From contig NZ_JAASHM010000016.1 in NCBI RefSeq assembly GCF_019734195.1, forward strand, positions 1,208 to 65,207: 64,000 nucleotides of DNA. The letters run 5' to 3'. Below, in pieces: positions 3,913 through 30,113 of this stretch. The position numbers were made by a program, and so were the translations under genes. The notes beneath the pieces were generated by a model. That model was not told the DNA's origin, did not search any database, and saw only the letters and a list, made by a program, of their open reading frames with translations. Source of the stretch: Clostridium sp. K13. Lineage in GTDB: Bacteria > Bacillota > Clostridia > Clostridiales > Clostridiaceae. The number at the start of each line of letters is the position of its first letter. Position 1 is the first letter of the stretch.

Positions 3913-4278
3913 TGCGAGTGATACATGCAATCGCTGCTAGCTTTTTAGCTAGGAGAGGAAAGTCGGAGCTCCATAGGGCAGGGTGCTGGTTAACGGCCAG
4001 TCAAGGCGACTTGAAGGATAGTGCAACAGAGATATACCGCCAGAAGTTATTTTAACTGAGTTCACTTTTGTGACTGGTAAGGGTGGAAAGGCGAGGTAAG
4101 AGCTCACCAGCATGGTGGTGACATCATGGCTATGTAAACCCCACCTGGAGCAAGACCGAGTAATGGCATTATGGGATTGCCCGTCCCGCCATGTGGTGTG
4201 TCGCTTGAGCTTACTGGCAACAGTAAGCCTAGATAGATGATTGCTTAATACAGAACTCCGCTTACGGATCATCTCGCA
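3913..4278 (+). ncRNA. rnpB: RNase P RNA, bacterial type B
   Basis: Catalytic RNA that removes 5' leaders from tRNA precursors. Conserved core elements are readable in order: GAGGAAAGTC near 3954, AGGGTGCTGGTTAACG near 3980, ACAGAGATATACCGCC near 4025, the CRIV-like GAGCAAGACCGAGTAA near 4147, and the 3' end CGGATCATCTCGCA. The 5' TGCGAG-TGAT pairs with the 3' ATCA-TCTCGCA to close P1. The roughly 366-base length and layout fit the Firmicute type B form. A strong terminator follows directly. Confidence 0.95.
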
Positions 4279-4283
4279 ACATG

Positions 4284-23200: not shown

Positions 23201-23229
23201 ATTATAATACCTTTTTAATAATTTAACAA
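23201..23229 (-). promoter_or_regulatory. ybeY operon promoter
   Basis: On the minus strand TTGTTA (23224-23229), a 17-base spacer and TATAAT (23201-23206). It lies 3 bases from the end of the 361-bp repeat, between the repeat and ybeY. Confidence 0.65.
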
Positions 23230-23231
23230 TC

Positions 23232-23592
23232 GAAATAAATTGCGAACTACAGTGAGAATGAAAAATGGAATATTACTTTTCCGGTAAGCGGTGAAATTTT
23301 CGCTTTGAATTTATATAATTGATTCCGTAAAATTTGCTAAAGTTTTTAAACTTGCTAAAGCTTCAAACAATAAAAACTTCTTAACACAAATTTTACTACA
23401 TCAATTATTAAATTCTACAGCTTAATTTCAATGCTTCCCTCCAAATTAATATTTCATTTTTTCTCTTCACTGTTTTTCTTATTTCCCCGGCTTATAGTTA
23501 ACGACTCCTGCTACAAATTTATAGCAGAAGTCGTTAACTTTAGGAAAATTCGGCTTAAATTGCAGACTTAAGCTTTAGTTCGCAGTTTATTT
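23232..23592. repeat. 361-bp foldback repeat, copy 1
   Basis: Noncoding element about 93% identical to 28418-28778 in the same orientation. Termini are inverted repeats: AAATAAATTGCGAACTA (23233-23249) against TAGTTCGCAGTTTATTT (23576-23592), 16 of 17 paired. Inside, 23250-23275 pairs with 23447-23472, 23288-23298 with 23424-23434, and 23307-23336 with 23387-23415. A side hairpin joins 23496-23506 and 23529-23539. It sits between pgpH and ybeY. No open frame and no clear target duplication. Confidence 0.9.
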
Positions 23593-23593
23593 G

Positions 23594-23617
23594 AAAAGGG
23601 AGGTAACCCTCCCTTTT
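23594..23617 (-). terminator. Terminator after pgpH
   Basis: Perfect stem AAAAGGGAGG / CCTCCCTTTT with a 4-base loop, overlapping the end of the pgpH stop codon. It isolates pgpH from ybeY, which are usually co-transcribed in Firmicutes. Confidence 0.85.
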
Positions 23618-25679
23618 ATTCTTTACCCTTTTCTTTTGGATACTCTATTCTATGATGATAAATGCCTTTTAATACCTTTAAGAAACAACCTTTTATTATT
23701 TCTAGATCTCTAAAGGTTAAATCACATTCGTTTAATTGATCTGAATTCAGTTTATCCTTTACGATATTATTAACCATATTTTCAATCTTTTCTAATGTAG
23801 GTTCTTGAATTGATCTTACAGCTGCTTCAACACTATCTGCCATCATAATTATAGCTGCTTCTTTACTTTGAGGTTTAGGTCCTGGATATTTAAAATCTTC
23901 TTCTTTTATACTATCTGGATCATTGCTACTATTCTTTAAAGTATAATAAAAGTACTTTACCAATGTTGTTCCATGGTGTTGTATCATCATATCACTTACT
24001 ACACTTGGAATATCGTATTCTTTAGCCAATTCTAAGCCATCTTTAACATGTGAAATTATTATAGATGCACTTAAACTTGGTGCAATTTTATCATGAGGAT
24101 TAACTCCTCCTAACTGATTTTCTCCAAAGAAAAAAGGTCTCTTTATTTTCCCTGCGTCATGATAATAAGCTCCAACCCTAACTAACATTGGATTTGCTCC
24201 TACTTCCTCAGCAGCAACTTCTGCTAAGTTTGCAACCATAACACTATGATGATATGTTCCAGGTGCCTCCATTAATAATCTCTTTAATAGTGGACTATTT
24301 GGATTTGAAAGCTCCAATAATTTCATATTAGTAACCAAACTAAAACTTGATTCTAAAAACGGTAATAACCCTATAGCTAATATACCTGAAATAAATGCTC
24401 CTAATGCTGCTAATGACATATCGATTAATATTTTTTTTATATTATTTGATAAAAGTATTCCACTTGATAAAACAACCATAGAAACAGAAATTGCAACATA
24501 AGCTGTTGAATATAATATATCATTTCTTTGACTTACCTTTTTTAAAGATGTAGATGCTACAATAGTTCCAACCAATCCCACCAAAATAATTTGAGGATCA
24601 AATCCAGCTATAACTGCTATAAGCATCAGATTTAAAGAATTAATTATAACGGAAACCTTATAATCTAAAAATACAGTCATAAGTATTGGAGAACAAGCTA
24701 TTGGAACTAAAAATAATGATACAAAAGCAAAAACTCTAGTTGTTACTAATGATAACAGATTTAATAGTAATATTAAAAACACAAGCTTAGTGTTAATAAT
24801 TACTTCTTTTTTCTCTTTCTTCAAATATAGGTATTGTACAACTAATACAAATAAAACATAAAATGCTATTATTATATAAGTATATATATAGTCCTTACTT
24901 ATACCCTCACCTACTAATCCTAATTCTGTAAGGATTGTTATTTGTCTTTGTGTAATTGGCTCTCCTTCTTTTACTATAGTTTGATTTTTCTTTATCATAA
25001 CCTTAGAAACACTTTTTAATGCCTCTTTAACAGCTTCATCTGTCTTTGTCTGATCAAAAAAGTAATTTGGCTTTACTTGGCTATCACACATTCCCTTTAA
25101 AATTTCTTCTAAATTAGAGTCCAAATTCTGACTATTTAAATAATCTTCTACAGTTGCCTTAGCCGACTCTATTTCCTCACTATTCCCATCTTCTATTTGA
25201 TTCTCATACGCCCTATCAATTGCAGCTAATGCTATCCATTGTAATTCCGTATCTTTATCAACAGTTAAATCTAATAATGTCTTATATTGAGCATCGGCAA
25301 GTTTAAATGTATCTATCTTTTTTAATTCACTAATTTTATCTTTTTCTTCTATTTCACTACTTTTCAGATTAATTAACTTATCAAAAAATGTTTTTATATT
25401 CTGACTCGCTTCGATCTTAACCTCATTTTTAAGAGTAAATTTTTTTTCTACTTTAGCTGATACTTCTTGCTCTTTTGCATTAGTAGCTTCTTCATCAATA
25501 ATATCTCTAGGTGCCTTTATATCAACACTAGCAATATCACCTTCAATGAAGTTATATCTCTTAGGTGTCACAACTGTCATTATTATAAAATATATTAATA
25601 TTGCTGTAACAGTAAATAAAAATATTCTTTTCCACTTATCTTTATGTATCTTTTTATTTACACCATTTTTATCTTTCAT
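23616..25679 (-). CDS. pgpH: Cyclic-di-AMP phosphodiesterase PgpH (7TM-HD, YqfF)
   Basis: 687 aa from the ATG at 25679; an upstream GTG three codons earlier overlaps the AAGGTG ribosome binding site. An N-terminal membrane anchor (about 20-40), a large extracytoplasmic 7TMR-HDED domain (about 45-265), seven membrane helices (about 270-455), then the HD domain with YHHSVMVANLAE, YYHDAGKIKRP and QHHGTTLVKYFYY. Characterised members hydrolyse c-di-AMP, which governs osmolyte transport. Follows yqfD by 21 bases. The phoH gene, found between the two in B. subtilis, is absent. Confidence 0.92.
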   Translation of the reverse strand: MKDKNGVNKKIHKDKWKRIFLFTVTAILIYFIIMTVVTPKRYNFIEGDIASVDIKAPRDIIDEEATNAKEQEVSAKVEKKFTLKNEVKIEASQNIKTFFDKLINLKSSEIEEKDKISELKKIDTFKLADAQYKTLLDLTVDKDTELQWIALAAIDRAYENQIEDGNSEEIESAKATVEDYLNSQNLDSNLEEILKGMCDSQVKPNYFFDQTKTDEAVKEALKSVSKVMIKKNQTIVKEGEPITQRQITILTELGLVGEGISKDYIYTYIIIAFYVLFVLVVQYLYLKKEKKEVIINTKLVFLILLLNLLSLVTTRVFAFVSLFLVPIACSPILMTVFLDYKVSVIINSLNLMLIAVIAGFDPQIILVGLVGTIVASTSLKKVSQRNDILYSTAYVAISVSMVVLSSGILLSNNIKKILIDMSLAALGAFISGILAIGLLPFLESSFSLVTNMKLLELSNPNSPLLKRLLMEAPGTYHHSVMVANLAEVAAEEVGANPMLVRVGAYYHDAGKIKRPFFFGENQLGGVNPHDKIAPSLSASIIISHVKDGLELAKEYDIPSVVSDMMIQHHGTTLVKYFYYTLKNSSNDPDSIKEEDFKYPGPKPQSKEAAIIMMADSVEAAVRSIQEPTLEKIENMVNNIVKDKLNSDQLNECDLTFRDLEIIKGCFLKVLKGIYHHRIEYPKEKGKE

Positions 25680-25709
25680 CTTGTTCACCTTCTCATCTTA
25701 CCCTAATAT

Positions 25710-26849
25710 CTAATAGCTTACTGTATCCTCACTTACTATATTTTGCTCTACAACAAAAACAACTTTTACTAATAAGTTTTCTTCATCTTTCATTTCTTTA
25801 TCCACTAATTTATCTACTACCTTTGCATCTCTACTTAGGTCATTTAACAAAGATTTTTCTAAACTATCAATAGCATTTTCTATTGCATCATCTTCTGATA
25901 GATTTATATCTTTTTCTACTCTTTCATAATATAACACTTTATTAAATATTTTACCACTCAATTCTATTTTATCATAATGTTCAAAATCTTTTATAGCTTT
26001 TTTCAGATAAATTTTTTTACCAAAGATACTTATATAAATATCACTATCCTTTTCTCCACTTCTCTCAAGTGTAGTACCTTTAACTTTTACATTCATAGAT
26101 TTTTCATAAAAAGTATTTGCTATAACTATTCCTCTAGGTGGCAAAATATACTCTCCACCTTCAATTCCATCTATACCTTCTATTACAACATCTCCAGCTT
26201 TAATAAGCTGACCACTCTTCACTTTAGCTCTTCCCGCAAATGTGTAAACTCTCTTTATTTCCCCTTCCATAGTAGCAACCAAATTTCCATACTCATATTC
26301 TTGTTCTTGTGGTGGATTTATTTTTTCTTCCACTACAACTTTCAATGTAGATCCTTCAATCCTTACCCTTAACCATAATATTTCTGAGCTTATATTTTCT
26401 AATTGCTTTTCTATCTCTTTTACATCAATAGATTGTTTTGAAATTCCTGGTCTAACTCCTATACTATTTAATTGCTTTCTTATTTCAAATGGTGGTATAT
26501 TTTGTTGAACATCTACTTCTACTGCCCATATGTAAGTAGATAAATAATATATAATACATAGAAACATGACTCCACCAACAACTAAAGATAATTTCTTCTT
26601 CATATTTCCTAAAAAGAATACTAACCCATTACTTTTTATAATTTTTATTCTGCCACCTAGTTTTTCCACATGTTCTCTTACTACTGCATAATCTAAATAA
26701 TCAATTTCCAGTACTAATGTTGCTACATCTTTTTTCTTTACTTTATACACTCTTATGTTTTTCGCCCAAAATAAATTTAATAATCTTTCAGTATTTAATA
26801 TTTTTATTTCAACCAATATTTTCCCTTTTTTAATCTTATCAAAAGCCAT
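25710..26849 (-). CDS. yqfD: Sporulation protein YqfD
   Basis: 379 aa. A cytoplasmic N-terminal region, one membrane segment (about 88-108, LSLVVGGVMFLCIIYYLSTY) and a large C-terminal extracytoplasmic domain (IGVRPGISKQSI, EILWLRVRIEGSTLKVVVEE). YqfC and YqfD are sporulation proteins made under sigma-E, thought to act at the mother-cell/forespore interface. Located 7 bases after yqfC. Confidence 0.92.
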   Translation of the reverse strand: MAFDKIKKGKILVEIKILNTERLLNLFWAKNIRVYKVKKKDVATLVLEIDYLDYAVVREHVEKLGGRIKIIKSNGLVFFLGNMKKKLSLVVGGVMFLCIIYYLSTYIWAVEVDVQQNIPPFEIRKQLNSIGVRPGISKQSIDVKEIEKQLENISSEILWLRVRIEGSTLKVVVEEKINPPQEQEYEYGNLVATMEGEIKRVYTFAGRAKVKSGQLIKAGDVVIEGIDGIEGGEYILPPRGIVIANTFYEKSMNVKVKGTTLERSGEKDSDIYISIFGKKIYLKKAIKDFEHYDKIELSGKIFNKVLYYERVEKDINLSEDDAIENAIDSLEKSLLNDLSRDAKVVDKLVDKEMKDEENLLVKVVFVVEQNIVSEDTVSY

Positions 26850-26856
26850 TTTTTAT

Positions 26857-27135
26857 TCACCTCACATATTCGATTGAATCAAAATAACCTTTAATAGTTA
26901 TAGTTGATGCCGCTATATATAATATTTCAAAATCATGTCCTTTAATTTCTACAGGTGACATATTGGTATTTATTTTTATTTTATCTCTTTCAAATATCAT
27001 TATCCCTTTATGATTTTCTATAGTTACCTCATTTCTTCCTATAACAATAATCTTTGGTACATCTAACAATACATCTTTAGGGAGATCAAGCTTTTCAACC
27101 AAAATTTCTTTACCTCTATTAATTTTATTTTCCAT
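26857..27135 (-). CDS. yqfC: Sporulation protein YqfC
   Basis: 92 aa, the family's normal length. YabP/YqfC fold: LPKDVLLDVPKIIVIGRNEV, ENHKGIMIFERDKIKIN and ILYIAASTITIKGYFDSIEY. Partner of YqfD, immediately upstream of it. Required for late sporulation in Bacillus; the mechanism is not established. Confidence 0.92.
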   Translation of the reverse strand: MENKINRGKEILVEKLDLPKDVLLDVPKIIVIGRNEVTIENHKGIMIFERDKIKINTNMSPVEIKGHDFEILYIAASTITIKGYFDSIEYVR

Positions 27136-27208
27136 AGTTTCTCTCCTTTAAATAATACTCTCTCAATGTACTTTATGATTTTAATTTAAAGAAAATCACA
27201 AAAATAAA

Positions 27209-27238
27209 AAAAGAACTCAATCTAAATTGAGTTCTTTT
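27209..27238 (-). terminator. Terminator after yqeY
   Basis: Stem AAAAGAACTCAAT / ATTGAGTTCTTTT with a CTAA loop, starting 2 bases beyond the yqeY stop, with a downstream TTTTTATTTT on the minus strand. Confidence 0.9.
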
Positions 27239-27240
27239 AA

Positions 27241-27693
27241 TTATTTACTATTTAAATACTCTTTAACAACCTGACTAACAAGTTTTCCGTCTGCTTTACC
27301 TACAACCTTTGGTCTAACTGCTGACATAAGCTTACCCATGTCTTTCATGTTATCAGCACCTATTTGTGTAGCTGTTTCTTTTACAATTTGTAAAATTTCT
27401 TTTTCACTTAATTGCTGAGGAAGGTAACCTAGCAAGATTTCAATCTCAGATTTATTCTGTTCAACCAAATCCTGTCTATTTCCCTTTTCAAATTCAAGCA
27501 TCGCTTCTTTACGTTGCTTGACTTCTTTTGCTAATATTTCTATAACCTTATCGTCCTCAAGCGTAACACCATCGGTTTTTTCTACTAGCAATACAGCAGA
27601 CTTAGCACTGCTTAATACATTAGCTCTAAATTTATCTTTAGACTTTAATGCACTCTTCCAGTCCTCTTGTAGTCTTTCTTTTATTGTTGGCAT
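27241..27693 (-). CDS. YqeY/GatB C-terminal-like domain protein
   Basis: 150 aa. The protein consists of the helical tail domain shared with GatB (LLGYLPQQLSEKEILQIVKE, then MKDMGKLMSAVRPKVVGKAD, VSQVVKEYL). In amidotransferase GatB this tail contacts tRNA; the free-standing protein's role is unclear. The conserved rpsU-yqeY pair is present, 31 bases apart. Confidence 0.93.
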   Translation of the reverse strand: MPTIKERLQEDWKSALKSKDKFRANVLSSAKSAVLLVEKTDGVTLEDDKVIEILAKEVKQRKEAMLEFEKGNRQDLVEQNKSEIEILLGYLPQQLSEKEILQIVKETATQIGADNMKDMGKLMSAVRPKVVGKADGKLVSQVVKEYLNSK

Positions 27694-27723
27694 ACTTAAA
27701 TACCTTCTTTCAAAAATTAAAAA

Positions 27724-27900
27724 CTACTTGAATTTTCTCTTTCTTGCAGCTTCTGATTTTTTCTTTCTCTTTACGCTTGGCTTTTCGTAGTGTTCTCTCT
27801 TTCTAACTTCTGAAAGAACCCCAGCTCTTGCGCATTTTCTCTTAAATCTTCTTAATGCACTTTCTAGTGTTTCGTTTTCTCCAACTTTGATTTCTGACAT
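27724..27900 (-). CDS. rpsU: 30S ribosomal protein S21
   Basis: 58 aa, starting [20 protein letters not shown], with the basic tail [15 protein letters not shown]. Length and sequence are typical of S21, which sits near the mRNA exit/anti-Shine-Dalgarno region of the 30S subunit. A GGGAGGG ribosome binding site precedes the ATG at 27900. Upstream of yqeY in the conserved order. Confidence 0.97.
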
Positions 27901-28023
27901 CTATTATCCCTCCCTCCGCTAGCTCAAATTAGTATCTTTAAATCAGCTACGGGCTTAATAACACATATTGTATTATACAATACGAGCCACAAAAATGTCA
28001 ATATTATTTATACTATTTTTCTA

Positions 28024-28368
28024 TTAACCTGGTGGCCACTTTAATTCTCTTGCACCTAATATATGAAAATGTATATGATTTACTGTTTGACCTCCATCAG
28101 CACCGCAGTTATTTACTATCCTGTAACCAGAATCAGCAATACCAAGTTCCCTTACTATTTTATTTATTACCATGAATATATGTGAAACTATTTCACATTT
28201 TTCTTCAGTTAATTCATTAGCACTTCCAATATGCTCCTTAGGTACCACTAAAAAATGAACTGGTGCTTCTGGACTTATATCATAAAATGCAAGCACTTTA
28301 TCATCTTCATATATTTTTTTAGATGGAATTTCCCCAGCTACTATTTTACAAAAAATACAATCTCCCAT
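28024..28368 (-). CDS. HIT family nucleotide-binding hydrolase (HinT-like)
   Basis: 114 aa. The catalytic HIT motif HIHFHILG is near the C terminus, and an N-terminal CIFCK pair suggests the zinc-binding variant. HinT-type proteins hydrolyse nucleoside phosphoramidates and aminoacyl-AMPs. The reading frame starts from a GGAGGTG ribosome binding site. The 361-bp repeat copy 2 begins 49 bases upstream of its start, separating it from mtaB. Confidence 0.93.
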   Translation of the reverse strand: MGDCIFCKIVAGEIPSKKIYEDDKVLAFYDISPEAPVHFLVVPKEHIGSANELTEEKCEIVSHIFMVINKIVRELGIADSGYRIVNNCGADGGQTVNHIHFHILGARELKWPPG

Positions 28369-28417
28369 AAACTCACCTCCTTTTATTGCTTAAAACTAAG
28401 TCATCCACGAACATTAT

Positions 28418-28778
28418 GAATAAAGTGCGAACTACAGTGAGAACGAAAAATGGAATATTACTTTTCCGGGAAGCGGTGAAATTTTCACTTTGAATTTATA
28501 TAATTGATTCCATAAAATTTGCTAAAGTTTTTAAACTAGCTAACGCGTCAAACAGTAAAAACTTCTTCACGCAAATTTTACTACATCAATTATTAAATTC
28601 TACAGCTTAATTTCAATGCTTCTCTCCAAATTAATATTTCATTTTTTCTCTTCACTGTTTTTCTTAGTTTCCCGACTTATAGTTAACGACTCCTGCTACA
28701 AATTTGTATTACAAGTCGTTAACTTTAGGGGGATTCTGCTTAAATTGTAGACTTAATCTTTAGTTCTCAATTTATTTC
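28418..28778. repeat. 361-bp foldback repeat, copy 2
   Basis: Same orientation and length as copy 1, with about 26 substitutions and no visible indels. The terminal inverted repeats are more worn (GTGCGAACTA against TAGTTCTCA). A G-to-A change opens one pair in the long inner stem, and four changes destroy the outer part of the side hairpin. Lies between mtaB and the HIT gene, in what is a continuous gene chain in relatives. No open reading frame. Confidence 0.9.
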
Positions 28779-28808: not shown

Positions 28809-30113
28809 CTAAACCATGCTTGCTATAGCATAATCTTCTACTGCTTCTTCAATTTTCACATCTACTATTTTACCAGTAATATCTGCTGACATGCAATGTA
28901 CTATTACTTTTATATAATTTCTTGTATATCCTTCATAGAAATCAGGCTTATCTTTAATTTCTTTTTCTATTAAAACATCCATTACTCTTCCAATGAACTT
29001 TTCAGTAAATGCATGCTCATTTTTATCATTTAATTCTATTAAAGCCTTACTTCTTATATCTTTTACAGTTCCATCAAGCTGATTTGGCATATCTGCAGCC
29101 TTAGTCCCCTTTCTAGGACTATATTTAAATACGTGAGTCTTTGTTAAATGAATTCTTTTTAAGTATTCATATGTTTCGTTAAACTCTTCTTCCGTTTCAC
29201 CTGGGAACCCAACAATTACATCTGTAGAAATTGATACATCTGGCAATGTTTCTCTTAACATGTTAACAGATGCTTCATACTCTTCAGCTGTATATCTTCT
29301 GTTCATTCTCTTTAATGTTGCATCACAACCACTTTGAAGTGATAAATGGAAGTGTGGACATAGCTTTTTAAAGCCTTTAATCTTTTCAACAACTTCTTCA
29401 GTAAAGAATGCTGGTTCAATAGATCCTATTCTAATTCTTTCTATTCCGTCTATCTTTTCTATTTCTTCTATTATATTTATTAAATTTATATTACCCTCTA
29501 AATCTAATCCATATGAAGCAGTATGTATACCTGAAAGTATAACTTCCTTAAATCCATGGGCTGCTAATTCTTTAACTTCTTCTAAAACTTTATTTGGATC
29601 CTTTGAACAAACTGACCCTCTAGCATAAGGTATTGTGCAATATGTACAAAATCTATTACATCCATCTTGAATTTTTAAAAATGCTCTAGTTTTATCTTGA
29701 TAATCCTCTATTTTTAAATCTTCAAACTTTTTATTTTGAAGAACTGGTTGAACATGAACTTGTGGCTGTCCCTCATCCTTCGCTTTATTAACATAGTAAA
29801 CTACATCACCTTTATTTCTTGTACCTAAAACAACATCTACTCCTGGTATTTCAGAAACTTCTTTAGGTGCCATTTGTGAATAACATCCAACTGCTGCAAT
29901 TATAGCATCTGGATTAGTTCTTCTTGCTCTACTTATTATTTGTCTAGATTTTTTATCTCCCATATTTGTTACTGTGCAAGTATTTATTACATATACATCA
30001 GAAAACTCATTAAAATCAACAACTTCATAGCCTTCTCTAATGAATTTTTCAGCCATCGCTTCTGATTCATACACATTAACTCTACATCCTAATGTAGCAA
30101 ATGCAACTTTCAT
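28809..30113 (-). CDS. mtaB: tRNA t6A37 methylthiotransferase MtaB
   Basis: 434 aa. A UPF0004 domain with cluster ligands C10, C46 and C77, then the radical-SAM motif C152-x3-C156-x2-C159, and a C-terminal TRAM domain. It converts t6A to ms2t6A at position 37 of tRNAs reading ANN codons. The prmA-rsmE-mtaB order identifies it as MtaB (YqeV) rather than MiaB or RimO. Its stop/start overlaps rsmE by one base. Confidence 0.95.
   Translation of the reverse strand: MKVAFATLGCRVNVYESEAMAEKFIREGYEVVDFNEFSDVYVINTCTVTNMGDKKSRQIISRARRTNPDAIIAAVGCYSQMAPKEVSEIPGVDVVLGTRNKGDVVYYVNKAKDEGQPQVHVQPVLQNKKFEDLKIEDYQDKTRAFLKIQDGCNRFCTYCTIPYARGSVCSKDPNKVLEEVKELAAHGFKEVILSGIHTASYGLDLEGNINLINIIEEIEKIDGIERIRIGSIEPAFFTEEVVEKIKGFKKLCPHFHLSLQSGCDATLKRMNRRYTAEEYEASVNMLRETLPDVSISTDVIVGFPGETEEEFNETYEYLKRIHLTKTHVFKYSPRKGTKAADMPNQLDGTVKDIRSKALIELNDKNEHAFTEKFIGRVMDVLIEKEIKDKPDFYEGYTRNYIKVIVHCMSADITGKIVDVKIEEAVEDYAIASMV

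Follow-up and report, generated by a model that had tools for sequence, protein, structure and literature searches.

A modular hairpin-forming DNA repeat at gene 3' ends in Clostridium sp. K13, with a hairpin core that recurs across clostridial genera

Two copies of a noncoding repeat in a 64,000-nt stretch of the Clostridium sp. K13 genome (assembly GCF_019734195.1, contig NZ_JAASHM010000016.1, positions 1,208 to 65,207; hereafter the window) belonged to a multi-copy family of multi-arm palindromes, each window copy holding inside its long arm a hairpin core of ~105 nt, here called R1. The repeat is real and dynamic, and is part of something wider than was seen in a first-pass annotation made from the letters of the window. 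The reading preferred here, at a probability of roughly 0.55, is that the window copies are a non-autonomous, hairpin-forming mobile DNA repeat, similar to REP sequences and miniature inverted-repeat transposable elements (MITEs), which comes to lie at the very 3' ends of genes and undergoes remodelling there. Because neither a target duplication nor a transposase was found, mobility is something that we infer. The pattern points to a kind of mobile hairpin DNA that has yet to be described.

The two copies and their family in the genome

The two copies aligned over 361 bp in the same orientation, without indels and at an offset of 5185 bases (23232-23592, copy A; 28417-28777, copy B), and differed at 29 of 361 positions (92% identity). 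The first-pass annotation had described the same end-to-end, indel-free pair with 26 differences (93%), a count that is corrected here to 29, and had placed copy B at 28418-28778, one base late, because the register is 5185 bases. As it had stated, no open reading frame (ORF), here of at least 60 aa, lay within either copy, and terminal inverted repeats (TIRs) were present, though imperfect (copy A, 20 nt, 90% complementary, 23233-23252 with 23573-23592). The TIR core consensus AAAYTGCGAACTA...TAGTTCGCARTTT delimited 352 nt in each copy (23237-23588 and 28422-28773). Copy A folded far better than shuffled sequence on both strands (z -10.8 and -10.4). The fold has a stem at the termini and three arms, namely a long one of ~225 nt, a strong hairpin (z -9.0 and -10.7) and a third, small hairpin (Table 1).

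Copy number by BLAST, set beforehand as a test, amounted to ~31 places in the draft genome (4.02 Mb, 92 contigs) and not merely two; these places were grouped from 64 hits, among which broken pieces and the two strands of the palindrome are counted separately. When up to 2 mismatches were allowed, the TIR pattern had 49 hits in the whole genome versus 3 for the reversed control; 46 of the 49 were places found by BLAST or their far ends, and the remaining three, all with 2 mismatches, equalled the control in number. Seventeen elements had both ends (145-453 nt): seven measured 352 nt between TIR cores, four measured 171-172 nt, with most of the long arm gone and cut back to its basal stem, and six had other lengths within the full range. 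Seven contigs started or finished inside the repeat, at least two of them being the two ends of a single element. Draft clostridial genomes may therefore undercount these repeats.

Flanking duplications and a full-length relative with a transposase and the same termini, both of which the first-pass annotation had proposed to look for, did not appear. The mean longest flank match of the 17 two-ended elements was 2.12, versus 2.08 for re-paired flanks, and target-site duplications of at least 4 nt were not seen, the comparison being informative for direct repeats of that length only. None of the 49 TIR hits in the draft genome, broken as it is inside the repeat at seven contig ends, marked an autonomous copy. 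The sequence TGTATCAAAACTACAATTCAC, which flanked several copies, was considered as a possible longer TIR and had 5 hits versus 2 in the control. A protein-like tail KASDREKLMISPEESII* in loci L009 and L020, altered in L008 and L054 (by eye), was dropped as a transposase remnant because L055 has the stretch as half of a palindromic arm without that frame.

In line with the first-pass annotation, which had recognised no named family, the element had no match in Rfam, either in the gathering-threshold scan of the window or in an E-value scan of 5 loci, where only two microRNA matches far below thresholds appeared. At the gathering threshold, the window's sole hit to Rfam was a bacterial RNase P RNA class A at 3915-4280 (272.8 bits). 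The element had no match in plasmids and phages at E 1e-5; a distant relative had one weak match in the plasmid search, and seven viral contigs had the hairpin-loop motif, one of them with a partial R1 match. No title or abstract opening among the papers matched in the mostly freely accessible literature described the repeat, and the loop sequence was unmatched as text.

The R1 hairpin core and its distribution

Sequence-anchored units shared the R1 frame GAATTTATAT ... TTCC ... GCTAAAG ... CTTCTTAACGC ... CTCC ... ATTAAATTC, in which the stems varied between units; the bulges were nearly constant while the stem letters changed. An alignment of 21 units made with MAFFT (A2) yielded 32 pairs in RNAalifold, 16 of them with double changes. 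Its source was 22 units collected by sequence pattern without any pairing rule, from which two were excluded and 20 used, with one unit from L032 added. One step behind the core length of ~105 nt and the comparison of core with TIR drew on 86 loci.

A covariance model of R1 matched at least 16 of 68 genomes of the genus, very unevenly (1 to 50 matches each), and at least 48 of 194 genomes of the order, in at least 17 of 49 genera. Across the phylum it matched at least 2 of 398 genomes, namely this genome and one weak match (E 5e-4). All these genome counts are lower bounds, as at most 58 (genus), 20 (order) and 10 (phylum) candidates were scored per genome. One genome of the search, G001, had 35 matches; the eight places examined in it (L289-L296) held an identical R1-type hairpin of 91 nt with similar flanks.

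In an alignment of 116 matches (101 distinct; A3), 31 of the 32 pairs had double changes that preserved pairing. Pairing cells made up 95.6% of 3205, versus 68.6% in shuffles, and none of 500 shuffles attained any of five R1 pairing measures. Sliding the partner by 1-3 columns lowered pairing to 32-49%, and double-change cells fell from 741 to 97-154. Since A3 was aligned to the covariance model its pair counts lean towards that model, whereas A2 was aligned with MAFFT. Beyond R1, the stems looked palindromic in other genera also, with different sequences (by eye). The TIR differed between close species (by eye), and the inner hairpin core was the conserved part.

A tree of 99 arms (108 columns), from which two opposite-strand duplicate rows had been removed, gave supported single clades for all eight distinct arms of this genome, all 16 of genome G099 and all three of G020. 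Label changes on the tree numbered 35, versus 75.7 in shuffles. Because arms clustered by species, copies appear to multiply or to be homogenised within several lineages.

Y1 (RAYT-like) transposases were rejected as a partner. Their genes occurred in 16 of 19 R1-bearing genomes (this genome, two close relatives and 13 of 16 further ones) but did not lie beside R1: the best R1 match in 38 Y1 loci from 16 genomes, out of 56 match rows, had E 0.086, and in the other 3 of the 16 further genomes Y1 was not matched. Two arrangements, an R1 pair in inverted orientation in G064 (L286) and an R1 cluster in G065 (L287), were dropped as autonomous elements, the intervening ORFs resembling transporter or metabolic genes (by eye).

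Gene ends and the sites in relatives

At 25 of 47 distinct element ends an inward-reading ORF, measured from stop to stop and with a minimum of 50 codons, ended within -10 to +2 nt of the element, a raw count without control, two of the 25 being short ORFs (65 and 71 codons). The stop codon overlapped the initial bases of the TIR core at six element ends. The window copies were looser, the genes reading into their right ends stopping 27 nt (copy A) and 35 nt (copy B) away.

Among 98 scored R1 places, 49 were convergent, 38 tandem and 11 divergent, versus 5, 28 and 13 among the remaining adjacent gene pairs of the same loci. Not included in this count were places with repeated flanks, 2 places within ORFs and 6 edge cases; two R1 of one element entered it twice. 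When each intergenic region was counted once, which removes the double counting, regions with R1 were convergent, tandem and divergent in 40, 33 and 6 of 79 cases, and those without R1 in 5, 26 and 13 of 44 (Fisher p 1e-5); the background is small, comes from the same loci and depends on simple ORF calls.

Relatives were found by protein search with pgpH (12 loci in total): Clostridium sp. D53t1_180928_C8 (96%), D43t1_170807_H7 and C. cuniculi (92%), Clostridium sp. 1001271B_151109_B4 and C. saudiense (82%), and more distant ones. Seven of these loci were lined up at both window sites. An insert of ~100 nt with a similar terminal stem and different contents lay at site A in the 96% relative, and the rest had none; at site B, the element was present in none of the seven. 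The R1 model found no core at either window site in the seven relatives. Searches with the element returned 90 BLAST rows in C. cuniculi and 58 in D43t1, and 8 and 6 in the other two relatives searched.

In a survey of 14 sites of this genome, each set against between one and five relatives (40 of 57 match rows used; 1 of 15 query pieces without a match), a family element lay flush at the same stop codon in at least one relative at 8 sites (by eye). Where both flanks could be located, the gaps at the shared sites measured 136 to 795 nt. One of the remaining sites was doubtful and five had no element, three of these five being seen in just one or two relatives. An ordinary hairpin terminator took the place of the element in the 82% relatives at sites 1, 4 and 6 (by eye). 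The matching part was inverted in four of six flank-matched site pairs (worked by hand; one of the same-orientation pairs has 66% flank identity). The first-pass annotation had taken copies always in the same positions across species to speak against mobility, and on this the outcome was divided: several copies held shared positions, sometimes inverted and with other arms, and the window copies were not present in that form in the seven relatives.

Nine sites allowed a comparison of protein tails, with an element-free relative available at seven of them. Element-free orthologues were longer by 4 residues at site 4 and by 1 and 5 residues at site 7, and trimming of the gene is shown at these two sites only. 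From the site and tail comparisons together, elements sit right at the end of genes, and their arms as well as their orientation vary at a fixed site.

Other repeats were seen by eye at the same kind of position. At gene ends that hold the element in this genome, relatives had a different, small hairpin repeat with GTGACAAGTGACAAGTG... arms, at the miaB-hit gap (L120, L123) and at site 11 (L222/L223), and a third type (AGTTAATAGTTA...) was present in L121, L127, L224 and L225. At site B itself, D43t1 and C. cuniculi had another small hairpin repeat and others had the third kind. Gene ends look like common ground of several hairpin families. Inside large elements of L194, L195, L204 and L217, a nested unit GTTAAGTGAAGCTCTAAATCTTGATTTAG...CTCACTTAA, or something near it, resembled a hairpin repeat inserted in an arm.

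Next to the window copies themselves, an intrinsic-terminator-like site (23594-23617) adjoined copy A, and a scan that scores short stems and loops only, and not long stems, gave no such site inside copy A or B. A promoter-like TTGTTA-17-TATAAT upstream of ybeY (23201-23229, minus strand) also adjoined copy A. At the same spot in four relatives, the -35 box TTGCGA lay within the TIR-like TAAATTGCGAAGTTT (two relatives) or TAAGTTGCGAAGTTT (two relatives).

Table 1. Positions of the two repeat copies and of their parts within the window
Feature	Copy	Position	Strand	Remark
Whole copy	A	23233..23592	+	Between the 3' end of a pgpH-like HD gene (stop 23616) and ybeY (start 23156)
Left TIR core	A	23237..23249	+	1 mismatch to consensus
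Long arm	A	23249..23473	+	~225 nt; coordinates read off sequence
R1 hairpin core	A	23307..23415	+	90.3 bits
Second arm, strong hairpin (GTTAACGACT...)	A	23493..23542	+	20 pairs on minus strand
Third small hairpin (GCTTAAATTGCAGACTTAAGC)	A	23553..23573	+	From fold; coordinates read off sequence
Right TIR core	A	23576..23588	-	
Whole copy	B	28418..28777	+	Between the 3' end of a miaB/mtaB-like gene (28809-30113) and the hit gene (28024-28368)
Left TIR core	B	28422..28434	+	1 mismatch
Long arm	B	28434..28658	+	Placed by register with copy A
R1 hairpin core	B	28492..28600	+	95.3 bits
Second arm	B	28678..28727	+	Less perfect than in copy A
Third small hairpin	B	28738..28758	+	Placed by register with copy A
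Right TIR core	B	28761..28773	-	2 mismatches

Explanations weighed and comparison with known systems

A fold that is kept as RNA on one strand is expected to show G-U over A-C. The 3205 R1 cells comprised 3039 Watson-Crick, 26 G-T, 51 A-C and 89 other combinations; without the two duplicate rows and two often unpaired positions, the numbers were 2823, 26, 50 and 56, respectively. By comparison, the RNase P RNA of the window had 8 G-U and 2 A-C in 98 pairs scored against its Rfam model (p 0.012, a single RNA). Because G-T was not commoner than A-C, R1 pairing was seemingly kept in DNA and not in one RNA strand. R1 also has polarity, as a gene reads into its 5' side at 51 of 62 single-R1 places and 23 of 36 multi-R1 places, so that the strand carrying the 3' end of that gene is the one with fewer wobble pairs than A-C mismatches. 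These counts favour pairing that would be kept at the DNA level, or one arm that would have been copied from the other during replication. From the constant bulges we infer that selection also acts on R1.

Those mismatches bear directly on the possibility that the copies are structured RNA of 3' untranslated regions, serving as two-way terminators or mRNA-end protectors, replacing ordinary terminators between convergent genes and spreading by gene conversion. Such an RNA would account for copies at gene 3' ends and between convergent genes, for the simple hairpin terminators seen by eye at sites 1, 4 and 6 of element-free relatives, and for strong folds of both strands. It is nevertheless rather unlikely, given that the strand towards the upstream gene had less G-U than A-C, that the scan of short stems and loops gave no terminator-like site within either window copy and that a plain terminator would hardly need one bulge pattern across at least 17 genera. 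R1 shares compensatory changes in its stems with structured RNA families in general, and matched no curated Rfam family.

An origin as a classical MITE, derived from a DDE insertion sequence, bounded by short TIRs and flanked by a target-site duplication, its autonomous parent being lost or in an assembly gap, is improbable: TIRs, size, copy number and the lack of an ORF suit it, but no duplication of at least 4 nt was found, the TIR varied between close species while the inner core was conserved (partly by eye), and the core occurred in at least 17 genera. A host DNA site scattered over gene ends, serving chromosome organisation or the uptake of DNA for example, is very doubtful: the wide conservation of the core and the DNA-level pairing speak for it, but the sequence clusters were species-specific and the distribution was patchy (1 to 50 matches where present, none in 52 of 68 genus genomes at the sensitivity used).

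Several results count against a mobile hairpin DNA repeat as well. The excess of A-C over G-T was modest, and scarce G-U could also come from selection of both strands as RNA. No target-site duplication of at least 4 nt and no R1 beside Y1 genes appeared, with Y1 absent altogether from some R1-bearing genomes, and no clean empty site was found in the relatives lined up at the window sites or in the 14-site survey. Several sites were common to multiple species, which also fits old residents homogenised by gene conversion. Protein tails were equal at sites 1, 3 and 6 and mostly differed by one residue or none at sites 0 and 9. Finally, the arms of C. cuniculi and D43t1 (G091, G092) intermixed in the tree, and likewise those of G199 and G207.

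Of the mobile, MITE-like element proposed by the first-pass annotation, the multi-copy and noncoding nature, the TIRs and the lineage-specific presence at the two window sites stood; target-site duplications and an autonomous copy did not appear. Its description was also too narrow for a modular multi-arm palindrome whose core hairpin extends to at least 17 genera. For the mobile hairpin repeat preferred here, an enzyme provided in trans might recognise the R1 hairpin in the form of folded DNA, a role that a single-stranded-DNA or hairpin-specific transposase would fit. Insertion would take place at or just behind a stop codon and displace the local terminator, and the TAA of the TIR would sometimes act as the stop of the gene. 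Arms could later be lost, gained or inverted in place, as is possible for long palindromes during replication. The element might also terminate transcription arriving from either side. A fuller version is put forward tentatively: a family-wide mobile hairpin DNA element might target gene ends, bring a stop codon and a gene-end structure and be moved by an unrecognised hairpin-specific enzyme, and across much of the Clostridiaceae its core would be preserved as a fold of the DNA whose stems covary and whose bulges stay fixed.

To our knowledge, bacterial interspersed repeats are mostly known from one or few species and from sequence alone. Here one hairpin core could be traced by covariation through at least 17 genera, with a signal of a fold kept in DNA. 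This provides a concrete bait with which to look for the enzyme recognising R1, and the family is a natural experiment on the swapping of terminators by convergent genes.

BIMEs are mosaic arrangements with both orientations, and both features occurred in the present repeat. REP repeats are imperfect palindromes with many intergenic copies clustered at gene 3' ends (PMC1590033), as are the elements described here. Their length of 20-40 bp (PMC3733652) differs from a core that alone has ~105 nt in elements of 145-453 nt, and of up to ~800 nt in relatives. In contrast with the REP/RAYT system, no R1 lay beside the 38 Y1 transposase loci.

BOX is a modular repeat, and BOX, RUP and SPRITE are known from pneumococcus and close kin, whereas R1 occurred in at least 17 genera with covarying stems. 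Like the present repeat, these pneumococcal repeats are interspersed, bunch together and insert into one another (PMC10969869). MITEs of the Bcr1, ERIC and NEMIS type share TIRs and a lack of coding capacity with it, and often adjoin genes and are transcribed (PMC3733652); ERIC folds as one long stem-loop (PMC2267715). The present elements differ from them in showing no duplication of 4 nt or more, several separate arms, and arms and orientation that vary at a fixed site. Clostridial likenesses by description, stem-loop families of conserved structure, are Clop-1 of C. perfringens (93 nt, 44 copies) and Clot-1 of C. tetani (74 nt, 19 copies; PMC2267715); R1 might include either, the families having been compared by description and not by sequence. 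Although membership of neither group was shown, and the size of REP and its linkage to RAYT were not found here, the repeat resembles in its workings REP/BIME and modular repeats such as BOX.

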